This document shows positions 32,571 through 35,562 of a stretch of 64,000 nucleotides of DNA, piece after piece (the stretch's first letter is position 1; the number at the start of each line of letters is the position of its first letter). The translations under genes were made by a program, and so were the position numbers. The notes under the pieces were generated by a model that was given only the letters and a program-made list of their open reading frames with translations, was not told the origin of the DNA and searched no databases. Origin of the DNA: Mesorhizobium sp. 113-3-3 (GTDB lineage Bacteria; Pseudomonadota; Alphaproteobacteria; Rhizobiales; Rhizobiaceae); the NCBI RefSeq assembly GCF_016756495.1, contig NZ_AP023243.1:3352501-3416500 (forward strand), read 5' to 3'.

Positions 32571-33191
32571 TCAGATTCCGAGCTTGCCGGCCATTTTTAT
32601 GAGCTCGGCCAGCGACACGGCCTGCATTTTGCGCATCGCTCGCGCGCGGCGGACCTTGACGGTTATCTCGCTGACGCCGAGGTCGCCGGCGATCTGCTTG
32701 TTGAGCCGTCCCTGCACCACCAGCGCCACGACGCTGTGTTCGCCTTCGCTCAGCGTCGCCAGCCGTTCGCGCAACGTATCGAGTTCCGCTGCTTGCGTCC
32801 GCCGCAGCCGGTCCTTGTCCAGGGCGGTGGCGATGGCATCGAGCAGGTCCTGTTCGCGGAACGGTTTGGGCAGGAAATCGACGGCGCCGGTCTTCATCGC
32901 CTGCACCGACATGGCGATGTCGCCATGCCCGGTCATGATGATGACCGGCAGCGGCGTCTCGGAACGGGCGAACTCCTTCTGGAAATCCATGCCGCTTTTG
33001 CCGGGCAGACGCACGTCGAGCACCAGGCAGGAAGGTGCGTCCGGCCTCGGCGCGCCCAGGAATTCGGCGACCGAACCGAAACAGCGCACGTCCAGGCCAA
33101 CCGAGCGCAGCAGGCTGTCGAGCGCCTCGCGCATGGCGGGATCGTCGTCGATGACGAAAACGATCTGCTCTGGTTCTCCGATAGGCGTCAT
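32571..33191 (-). CDS. FixJ-family response regulator (receiver + LuxR HTH)
   Basis: This 206-residue two-domain transcription factor has a receiver with phosphoacceptor Asp59 (LVLDVRLPGKSG), the acidic pair in VIDDDP and the conserved Lys in FLPKPF. It is followed by a LuxR/FixJ helix-turn-helix (LNKQIAGDLGVSEITVKVRR). The start (ATGA) overlaps the kinase gene stop by four bases, so both are made together. The kinase is its likely partner. Its targets are unknown; the transporter and methyltransferase genes next door are candidates. Confidence 0.92.
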   Translation of the reverse strand: MTPIGEPEQIVFVIDDDPAMREALDSLLRSVGLDVRCFGSVAEFLGAPRPDAPSCLVLDVRLPGKSGMDFQKEFARSETPLPVIIMTGHGDIAMSVQAMKTGAVDFLPKPFREQDLLDAIATALDKDRLRRTQAAELDTLRERLATLSEGEHSVVALVVQGRLNKQIAGDLGVSEITVKVRRARAMRKMQAVSLAELIKMAGKLGI

Positions 33192-34273
33192 TGCTCTGAC
33201 CCGCGCGGTCCGGTTTTGCCGGCCGGGAGCGAAAAGAAGAAGGCGGCGCCGCGCGGCGCCGCAGGCTGCGCCCAGATGCGGCCGCCATGGCTTTCGACGA
33301 TGGAGCGGCTGATGGCAAGCCCCATGCCCAGGCCCTCGGGTTTGGTGGTGTAGAAGGCGTCGAAGACATGGTCGAGTTCGACGCCGCCCAGCCCACGGCC
33401 GGAATCGCGCACCTCTATGACGATTTCGCCGGATTTACCGGGGCTGGTCACGATGGTGACGTCACGCGCTTCTTCGCCGCTCACCGCCTCGAGCGCGTTG
33501 AGGACGAGGTTGAGGATGACCTGCTGGATCTGCACCGGATCGGCCTGGGCCCGAGGCAGTTTGCTGGCCAGTTCCGTCCGCAAGGAGACATGCGCTCTGC
33601 CGGCCTCGGTTTCCACCAGGGTCAGCGTCTCCGCTATCAGCTGGTTGACGTCCAACCGGACGGCCTTGCCGCCCGCCTTACGGGTCAGACCGCGCAGGCG
33701 CTTGATCAGCTCGCTCGCGCGTTTGGCGTCCCTGACGATGCGTTCGGCCGCCTTGCCGGCCTCATCCGGATTGCCGCCCGCCAGCCAGCGCCGGGCGGCG
33801 TTGCCGTTCAAAACGATTGCCGCCAGCGGCTGGTTGAGCTCATGCGCGATCGAGGCCGTCAATTCGCCCAGCATCGTCACGCGCGTGATGTGGGCGAGTT
33901 GCGCCTGCGCCTCCCGCGCGGCGGCCTCGGCGGCGGCGGTGCGCAGCGCCAGATAGGCGGTGACGGCGATCGCCACCAGGCTGATGGCGCAGTTGATCAT
34001 GCCCGCCGGCACCGAACCCGCCCGCGTCAGGAAAAAACTCAGCACGGTGAGCGCCATGCAGGCCGCCGCCACCATCGCCACGCCGCGGCGGTCGAGATAG
34101 CGGACCGCAATCAGGACAATGGCGACGTAGAAGACCGCGACCGCGATTTCGAGATTGGTGATCGTATCGGCAAGGAAGATGGCCGCCGCCAGCAGGGCAA
34201 GCAGGGCCGCCGGCAGCAGCGGCCGGCGCCCGAGGAGCGGTCCAAGGAGCGGCAAGGACGATCTTCCAGACAT
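33188..34273 (-). CDS. Membrane sensor histidine kinase, FixL-like core
   Basis: This 361-residue kinase has four to five membrane segments in the first 110 residues and no PAS domain. A HisKA helix follows with His144 in SIAHELNQPLAA. The HATPase has an N box NLVLNALEAV, and the GRGLGG and GMGLAI loops. The HELNQPL sequence is typical of kinases paired with FixJ-type regulators. ATG at 34273 with AAGGAGG upstream is firm, and the longer frame to 34633 has no kinase features. The signal sensed by the membrane domain is unknown. Confidence 0.9.
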   Translation of the reverse strand: MSGRSSLPLLGPLLGRRPLLPAALLALLAAAIFLADTITNLEIAVAVFYVAIVLIAVRYLDRRGVAMVAAACMALTVLSFFLTRAGSVPAGMINCAISLVAIAVTAYLALRTAAAEAAAREAQAQLAHITRVTMLGELTASIAHELNQPLAAIVLNGNAARRWLAGGNPDEAGKAAERIVRDAKRASELIKRLRGLTRKAGGKAVRLDVNQLIAETLTLVETEAGRAHVSLRTELASKLPRAQADPVQIQQVILNLVLNALEAVSGEEARDVTIVTSPGKSGEIVIEVRDSGRGLGGVELDHVFDAFYTTKPEGLGMGLAISRSIVESHGGRIWAQPAAPRGAAFFFSLPAGKTGPRGSEQ

Positions 34274-34436
34274 GCCGCCTCCTTGCTGATCGAACTGCCG
34301 CGACGGGCAGGCGACATTACCGCGCCGCGTTTCAGCCCGGCAAGGCGCTGCAATATCGCACCGGATCCTTGAACTTTCGCTTTCAACAGGCCGCCTCGGC
34401 ATTGGCAATTGGCGCTTCCCGTGCAGAGATGAGCGA

Positions 34437-35192
34437 ATGCGCGAAGCTTTGATCGCAGTGGTGATCTTCCTGTGCCTGGCCGCATCGGCATTTGGCAGCA
34501 TGGCAATCTGGCCGAGACTGCCGACCAGACACCGCGATGACGACACGAACACGGTGGTTCGGCTTGCAGCCAACCTGTTCGGCGTCATGACCTCGCTGAT
34601 ACTCGGCCTGATGATCAACTCGGCCAAGAACACCTTCGAATCGATCGATCACAATGTGCACGCCTATGCGACGGAGCTGATCCTGCTCGACAGGACATTG
34701 CGCCGGTACGGTCCCGAAACCGATGCGGTGCGCCAGCCGTTGGTCGCCTATGTGCAGCGGGTGGTGGACACCTCGTCACAAAACAGCGAAACGACTATCG
34801 CCGCCAACCAACTGTCCGAACGTCTGCTGACGGAAATCGGCGCACGGCTAAATGCGCTGACGCCGTCCGACGCTGTACGTGGTTCCCTCCTGCAGGATGG
34901 ACGCCAGCGCCTGCAGAAGGTACTGGAAATGCGCTGGGTGCTGATCGAGCAATCGGAGGGCGCCATCCCTTGGCCGCTGATTGCCATGCTGGTTGCGTGG
35001 CTGGCACTGATCTTCGCCAGTTTCGGCTTCAGGGCGCCGAAGAATGCCATCACAGCCACAACCCTTGTGGTGTCGGCCGCGCTGATCGCGGGGGCGATCT
35101 ACCTGATCCTGGACATGGATGTCGCATTTTCCGGGCCGATCCAGATTTCGTCGGCGCCGCTGGAGCGGGCGTTGGCGGAATTGCAGCGTTGA
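34437..35192 (+). CDS. DUF4239 (bestrophin-like) membrane protein
   Basis: This 251-residue protein has two N-terminal membrane segments (LIAVVIFLCLAASAFGSMAI; LAANLFGVMTSLILGLMIN) and two near the C-terminus. The intervening soluble part holds the family's YATELILLDRTLRRYGPET. The DUF4239 family is distantly bestrophin-like, but no transport activity is established. It is divergent from the sensor kinase (163 bases). The EncFtn-like gene follows 55 bases downstream on the same strand, possibly in one transcript. Confidence 0.85.
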   Translation: MREALIAVVIFLCLAASAFGSMAIWPRLPTRHRDDDTNTVVRLAANLFGVMTSLILGLMINSAKNTFESIDHNVHAYATELILLDRTLRRYGPETDAVRQPLVAYVQRVVDTSSQNSETTIAANQLSERLLTEIGARLNALTPSDAVRGSLLQDGRQRLQKVLEMRWVLIEQSEGAIPWPLIAMLVAWLALIFASFGFRAPKNAITATTLVVSAALIAGAIYLILDMDVAFSGPIQISSAPLERALAELQR

Positions 35193-35247
35193 GGCGGAAC
35201 CGGCGACATTCCCAGGCATTCATGGGGATGAAGCACCGGAGGACGAC

Positions 35248-35562
35248 ATGGGTTTCGACCAGTATCACGAACCGCCTGAAGAACTGTCGCAGAAGGTGCG
35301 GACCTTTGCGCGCATGATCACCTCGCTGATCGAGGAAGCGGAAGCGATCGGCTGGTACGAACAGCGCATCTCGGTGGAGAAGGATCCGCAGGCGCGGGCC
35401 ATCATGCAGAACGCGCAAGGCGAGGAGTTCAAGCACTTCGGCATGGATCTGGAATTCCTGCTGCGCCAGAAGAAGGACTGGCGCGCGGAATTGAAGGAAA
35501 TCCTGTTCACCACCGGCGACATCGTCAAGGCCGGTGAGCGGGGCGAGAAGAAGGTGGATTGA
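35248..35562 (+). CDS. EncFtn-like (encapsulated ferritin family) protein without capsid signal
   Basis: This 104-residue helical protein aligns, from memory, with the Rhodospirillum rubrum encapsulated ferritin. Residues Glu29/Glu30, Glu32, Trp36, Tyr37, Glu59/Glu60 and His63 have the same spacing as that protein's Glu31/Glu32, Glu34, Trp38, Tyr39, Glu61/Glu62 and His65. EncFtn dimers form the ferroxidase site from Glu32, Glu62 and His65 of each subunit. The tail ILFTTGDIVKAG also matches, but the protein ends GERGEKKVD, with no encapsulin-loading peptide. No capsid gene is near. GGAGGA lies five bases before ATG 35248. An orphan iron-oxidising protein is the best reading. Confidence 0.82.
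   Translation: MGFDQYHEPPEELSQKVRTFARMITSLIEEAEAIGWYEQRISVEKDPQARAIMQNAQGEEFKHFGMDLEFLLRQKKDWRAELKEILFTTGDIVKAGERGEKKVD

Follow-up and report, generated by a model that had tools for sequence, protein, structure and literature searches.

A shell-free relative of encapsulated ferritin in Mesorhizobium with a predicted general stress response promoter

The stretch of DNA analysed here (the window) comprises 64,000 nucleotides of the genome of Mesorhizobium sp. 113-3-3 and encodes a 104-residue protein related to the encapsulated ferritins (EncFtn), downstream of a gene for a DUF4239 membrane protein. By its family, its ligands and its predicted monomer fold, this protein is an EncFtn relative, and it is shell-free in having no targeting peptide and no PF04454 shell in its genome. 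The reading that we find fairly probable is that this tail-less EncFtn, in a genome with no family 1 encapsulin shell, acts in the cytoplasm as an open-ring Fe2+ oxidiser that would be induced by EcfG/RpoE2 from a promoter of its own, and that it is likely to be independent of DUF4239. The free form of EncFtn is already known; what is added here is the promoter, the statistics on shell-free genomes and the rejection of a pairing with the membrane protein.

Family, active site and fold

The protein scores 86.3 bits against the EncFtn-like profile PF22277 (cut-off 27), and its best solved relatives in a sequence search of the PDB include Rru_A0973 (E 8.8e-17) and NE0167/3k6c (E 2.9e-14). Against TIGR04535, the NCBI model for encapsulin-associated ferritin-like proteins, it reaches 90.5 bits, below the cut-off of 125, so that it is kin to the shell-loaded subfamily but stands outside it. 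A first-pass annotation, made from the DNA letters without database searches, had noted that the protein reproduces the ligand spacing of EncFtn. The profile match and an alignment to Rru_A0973 confirm this: with an offset of 2, Glu29/30/32, Trp36, Tyr37, Glu59/60 and His63 correspond to Rru Glu31/32/34, Trp38, Tyr39, Glu61/62 and His65. In Rru EncFtn, passages of He et al. 2016 (PMC5012862) assign Glu32, Tyr39, Glu62 and His65 to the ferroxidase centre and Glu31/Glu34 to the entry site; these fall on E30, Y37, E60 and H63, and on E29 and E32, of the window protein. Across 205 aligned relatives (the 211 loci described below less six truncated copies) the ligand columns are invariant but for a single Cys at position 37 and two changes at position 32, to Asp in one row and to Gln in another.

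An AlphaFold2 model of the monomer (62 sequences; mean predicted local distance difference test score, pLDDT, 94.9) has helices at residues 15-43, 47-74 and 76-85. The predicted monomer thus consists of two long antiparallel helices and a short one, as expected of the EncFtn superfamily, and Foldseek superposes it on Rru_A0973 (5da5) with a root-mean-square deviation (rmsd) of 1.1 and on NE0167 (3k6c) with 0.9 (0.9-1.2 overall). The C-terminal tail, GDIVKAGERGEKKVD, is conserved within Mesorhizobium and is predicted to form an ordered helix at 92-103 (block pLDDT 90-95). Since the solved relatives 5da5 and 3k6c are decamers, the protein would by homology assemble into a ring, and homology likewise points to ferroxidase activity. 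A near relative (P0071) bears the NCBI name 'long-chain fatty aldehyde decarbonylase', perhaps because of a weak match to PF11266; the window protein itself gives such a weak match.

Could the protein instead be a metal-binding scaffold or sensor that has retained the EncFtn site and lost iron turnover? The outer-surface site of Rru EncFtn (His57, Glu61, Glu64) is only partly kept, which speaks for this: of the 56 Mesorhizobium rows, 55 have Asn at position 55 and all 56 have Lys at position 62, in place of His57 and Glu64. (In the order and class set, His and Glu are found in 71 of 72 rows.) We nevertheless think it unlikely, since the residues of the ferroxidase centre and the entry site are kept and the gene is under strong purifying selection. 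The ratio of nonsynonymous to synonymous substitution rates (dN/dS) is 0.043 for EncFtn versus 0.167 for DUF4239 over the same 27 loci.

Encapsulin shells, targeting peptides and the spread of the free form

No family 1 shell (PF04454) was found anywhere in the genome (7.73 Mb in three contigs, the window included), in a search that was limited to PF04454 and did not extend to family 2 encapsulins. The identical search was positive in 3 of 14 control genomes. The first-pass annotation had stated that there is no shell in the window and that the protein lacks a loading peptide; the first statement extends, for PF04454, to the whole genome, and the idea of a hidden family 1 shell is rejected. 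The second also stands, the tail GDIVKAGERGEKKVD being without a targeting peptide of the SLGIGSLK type.

To these single observations can be added counts from 211 EncFtn loci, of which 58 are from Mesorhizobium, 73 come from order and class genomes, and 80 are named loci drawn from many phyla. The order set had 20 genomes with a PF22277 match (five below the cut-off were excluded and four of Mesorhizobium counted elsewhere) and the class set had 63, from which the genome studied here was excluded. The named loci are not an even sample, as 515 candidates were ranked by their similarity to a single Faunimonas protein and the top 80 taken. A few loci occur twice: the Faunimonas one is both L062 and L307, and L112, L118 and L128 repeat loci of the genus set. 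Neither the ligand count nor the tree includes the six truncated copies (L106, L126, L132, L268, L199 and L208), which were retained in the peptide table.

A targeting peptide of the SLGIGSLK type, or a close variant, is present at 29 of 29 loci with an adjacent shell gene and at 0 of the 182 without one (six of these being the truncated copies), by a pattern that was composed after the tails had been viewed. It is absent at 58/58 Mesorhizobium loci. Two named copies, L087 (119 residues) and L091 (129 residues), are long yet tail-less in the sense that they have no targeting motif. In genome-wide searches PF04454 is absent from 60 of the 73 EncFtn-bearing order and class genomes, and the 13 that have it are exactly the 13 whose EncFtn carries the peptide and lies beside a shell gene; PF04454 is missing from every one of the 60 whose copy is tail-less, including one in which a contig end truncates the gene. 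In the named set, where the genomes of 49 of the 80 loci, many of them metagenome-assembled and perhaps incomplete, were searched, 38 of 39 with a tail-less EncFtn (one copy is truncated) lack PF04454, and the exception is a Mesorhizobium. Nearly all tail-less EncFtn examined thus live in cells without a family 1 shell, which bears on the question, left unclear in passages of a 2024 review by Eren et al. (PMC11202242), of whether these short proteins, there called s-FLPs, are encapsulated.

In Mesorhizobium itself EncFtn occurs in 59 of 146 genomes, a PF04454 shell in 12 and both in nine. The window protein might be a cryptic cargo that enters an encapsulin through an undefined signal in its short tail, as the review leaves open for s-FLPs. 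Two points favour this: the tail is conserved in the genus, and shells are commoner in EncFtn-bearing than in EncFtn-less Mesorhizobium genomes (9/59 vs 3/87, Fisher p 0.014), an excess that allows for some link in those strains. We regard it as highly improbable all the same. The genome studied here and 50 of the 59 EncFtn-bearing members of the genus have no PF04454, nor have any of the 60 order and class genomes with a tail-less copy. In 6 of 6 Mesorhizobium encapsulin loci read (L008 and L057-L061, out of 12 shell loci, four of the six coming from genomes with both shell and EncFtn) the shell gene lies directly behind that of a peroxidase with a GSLGIGSLK/R-type tail. We take this peroxidase to be of the DyP type, from its motif. 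In genomes G156 and G284 the shell match is split in two, and in G264 it is short; the EncFtn of G156 contains an internal stop and that of G198 is split in two.

On an unrooted tree of 150 sequences and 96 columns, EncFtn must have switched between the shell-bound and the free form four times or more, and each of the two main halves contains the free form; most forks are weakly supported, and, the tree having no root, gain and loss of shell loading get no direction from it. In this tree the Mesorhizobium proteins group with those of Bradyrhizobium amid mostly Bacteroidota rows. The gene is patchily distributed, not only among the Mesorhizobium genomes but also in a sample of the family (2 hits in 151, both Mesorhizobium), and patchiness and tree grouping together suggest that it arrived in Mesorhizobium horizontally.

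A broader proposal, which we put forward as a tentative one, with the odds somewhat against it, is that most EncFtn would never see a capsid. Ferritins would then have a third strategy besides cages and encapsulins, namely the free ring, an open ferroxidase present in nine bacterial phyla (going by record titles). In rhizobia the general stress response would have recruited it as a Dps-like iron detoxifier, and shell loading would have been gained or lost several times.

Is the free form accompanied by another protein? Among 61 free loci in other phyla no widely shared neighbour family was found with a crude gene caller. The largest cluster, at 7 of 61 loci, reflects local synteny in one Chloroflexota-rich group, and a conserved partner beside free EncFtn in other phyla is ruled out on this count. 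In Faunimonas pinastri (L062, and L050 near 889-1437) EncFtn follows a gene for a putative macrodomain-like protein, and a similar protein adjoins EncFtn in two Mucilaginibacter loci.

The promoter-like box and the DUF4239 neighbour

The features mapped in this part of the window are as follows.

35248..35562, + strand: short EncFtn-type ferroxidase homologue of 104 residues, without targeting peptide (PF22277, PDB matches, AlphaFold2 and Foldseek)
34437..35192, + strand: DUF4239 (PF14023) bestrophin-like membrane protein of 251 residues, by profile; an optional neighbour rather than a needed partner
35196..35220, + strand: predicted sigma-EcfG/RpoE2-type promoter GGAAC-N16-CATT, 3 bases past the DUF4239 stop codon; such a box occurs at 55 of the 59 Mesorhizobium loci
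35238..35242, + strand: GGAGG resembling a ribosome-binding site, upstream of EncFtn, found by reading the sequence
34402..34426, + strand: leader of DUF4239, TTGGCA-N13-GTGCAG, conserved (with N12-16) in 27 of 28 loci; an upstream element of its own, lacking the GGAAC box

As the first-pass annotation had said, EncFtn lies 55 bases behind DUF4239 on the same strand, and the promoter-like box sits inside this gap (35193-35247). In the 150 bases ahead of EncFtn a box of the form GGAAC-N16/17-C(A/G)TT is present at 55 of 59 Mesorhizobium loci, whereas 100 shuffles that preserve dinucleotides give a mean of 0.61 and a maximum of 4; because of the kinship among the 59 loci, these shuffle counts overstate their independence. 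The 55 boxes comprise 49 different sequences, have spacers of 16 (36 loci) or 17 bases (19 loci), and are found with or without DUF4239. The same box is absent at control starts in these loci: 0 of 28 for DUF4239, 0 of 39 for the downstream gfo gene, and 0 of 6 and 0 of 4 for the upstream response-regulator-like and sensor-kinase-like genes.

The box resembles the promoter recognised by sigma-EcfG/RpoE2 in the alphaproteobacterial general stress response, and it leads us to predict that EncFtn is controlled by EcfG. The motif is given as GGAAC-N16-CGTT for R. etli in a passage of PMC3892343, which also describes EcfG as restricted to Alphaproteobacteria, and as GGAAC-N17-20-GTT for Sphingomonas in part of PMC6599016, where some EcfG-dependent genes end in CATT. 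M. loti has a heat-induced rpoE2 homologue, as an excerpt of PMC3989490 reports. The GGAAC at -35 and the 16-17 base spacer are both present in the window.

Several observations weigh against a free ring under such control. In the first place, the -10 element in the window is CATT and not the canonical CGTT, as it is in 46 of the 55 boxes; CGTT is found in nine (9/59 loci). Secondly, the box is missing in L195-L198, whose EncFtn, at 82-87% identity, is among the most diverged, and of which L195 has a full DUF4239. It is also missing from all three named alphaproteobacterial loci outside the genus (two Bradyrhizobium and one Faunimonas), the nearest such kin, and is present in just 8 of 60 other free copies from the order and class (200 bases searched). 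Finally, passages of PMC5012862 report that Rru EncFtn in isolation took up no more than 10-15 irons per ring, and that without its shell the iron precipitated and the protein aggregated; a free form would thus need an outlet for Fe3+. The excess of shells in EncFtn-bearing Mesorhizobium genomes and the relatedness of the 59 loci, both mentioned above, count on the same side.

Box counts in the different groups suggest a stress control that is repeated rather than universal and is strongest in Mesorhizobium; among named loci of other phyla 1 of 74 has a box (200 bases). A strict box, GGAAC-N15-18-[CG]GTT, lies no more than 200 bases from EncFtn in 7 of 13 EncFtn-encapsulin operons of Alphaproteobacteria other than Mesorhizobium (L274, L276, L278, L280, L290, L291 and L293), so that encapsulated ferritin may also belong to the general stress response. 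No report of an encapsulin under EcfG was found in the open-licence PMC literature, in which the ferritin-like proteins placed under EcfG are Dps-type in the passages concerned (PMC6599016, PMC5869019).

The neighbouring gene product is a DUF4239 protein (156 bits against PF14023, cut-off 32). The first-pass annotation proposed that EncFtn works as a pair with it, for instance with a pentameric bestrophin-like channel for iron or anions on which an EncFtn ring of five-fold symmetry would dock. A complete DUF4239, however, precedes EncFtn in 28 of 59 Mesorhizobium loci, no full copy does so in the other 31, and none is near EncFtn in any of 150 loci outside the genus. Several strains have lost DUF4239 and kept an intact EncFtn. 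In one locus part of the DUF4239 leader is fused to the last 23 DUF4239 codons and three others retain scraps of its 3' end; in all there are four clear cases of remnants or internal deletion ahead of EncFtn and one weak one. The two genes also have separate upstream elements, and the dN/dS of DUF4239 is about four times that of EncFtn. We judge such a pair to be very unlikely and reject DUF4239 as the partner of EncFtn on co-occurrence, remnants and separate upstream elements. The annotation had further suggested that a free form paired with a membrane protein would be a different way to handle iron; the free form stands, although it is already in print, and the pairing falls.

The DUF4239 leader (TTGGCA-N12-16-GTGCAG in 27 of 28 loci) ends 9-11 bases upstream of the start codon and is perhaps the promoter of a leaderless message. 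A sigma-54 reading of it, made by eye, was abandoned for want of a conserved inner GG. Divergent to DUF4239, at 32571-34273 on the - strand of the window, is a pair of genes that by eye are sensor-kinase-like and response-regulator-like. This pair is present in the compared stretch of 9 of the 59 loci, and in L175, L203 and L209 it immediately precedes EncFtn, without an intervening DUF4239.

Under our preferred interpretation, that of a free ring under stress control, events might run as follows. Stress would free EcfG, and EncFtn would be transcribed from the box at 35196-35220. With Fe2+ the protein would form an open ring, as in its solved relatives, and the ring would oxidise Fe2+ to Fe3+ in the cytoplasm and so limit Fenton chemistry. 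Its role would be Dps-like, in that free Fe2+ would be removed under stress, with little iron stored for want of a shell. The ferric product could pass to other ferritins or to the cytosol; this is the least certain step. The genome counts make two questions directly testable, namely whether a bare ferroxidase ring protects the cell and where the ferric iron goes. The stress-type promoter suggests a condition in which to look for EncFtn function, and a natural control is available in Mesorhizobium, whose strains differ in whether the DUF4239 neighbour is present.

Comparison with known systems

DUF4239 can be compared with KpBest and other bestrophins. Its predicted fold is, like theirs, an all-helical membrane one, and bestrophins lead both the Foldseek and the VIA rows. 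The model is of modest confidence (pLDDT 76.9), no Foldseek match reaches E <= 0.001, and sequence comparison up to E 10 yields no bestrophin of the PDB.

The shell-loaded Rru_A0973 (5da5) shares with the window protein the ferroxidase centre Glu32/Tyr39/Glu62/His65, the entry site Glu31/Glu34 and, in the predicted monomer, the backbone (rmsd 1.1). The window protein differs in having neither the disordered tail nor the targeting peptide, in coming from a genome without PF04454, and in its TIGR04535 score (90.5 against a cut-off of 125).

The closest known type is the shell-free one, which He et al. 2016 named the Non-EncFtn group (in a passage of PMC5012862) and which Eren et al. 2024 treat as the s-FLP, with the solved decamer 3k6c (in part of PMC11202242). 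Members of the NE0167 type and the window protein are alike in length (about 95-105 residues), in the two-helix monomer, in the ligands and in the lack of a targeting peptide; NE0167 itself superposes with an rmsd of 0.9-1.0 at 41-42% identity. They seem to differ in the tail, which in 3k6c is short (about 10 residues) and disordered, whereas in the window clade it is longer and acidic and, in the window protein, helical by prediction. The window clade also mostly lacks the His57/Glu64 outer site, and in Mesorhizobium it has the EcfG-type box.

In its predicted role the protein comes nearest to Dps under EcfG-type control in Sphingomonas and Caulobacter, likewise a ferritin-superfamily iron oxidant in the general stress response, as passages of PMC6599016 and PMC5869019 describe it. 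Dps, however, is a closed, iron-storing cage of 12 subunits, whereas EncFtn is an open ring (part of PMC11202242).
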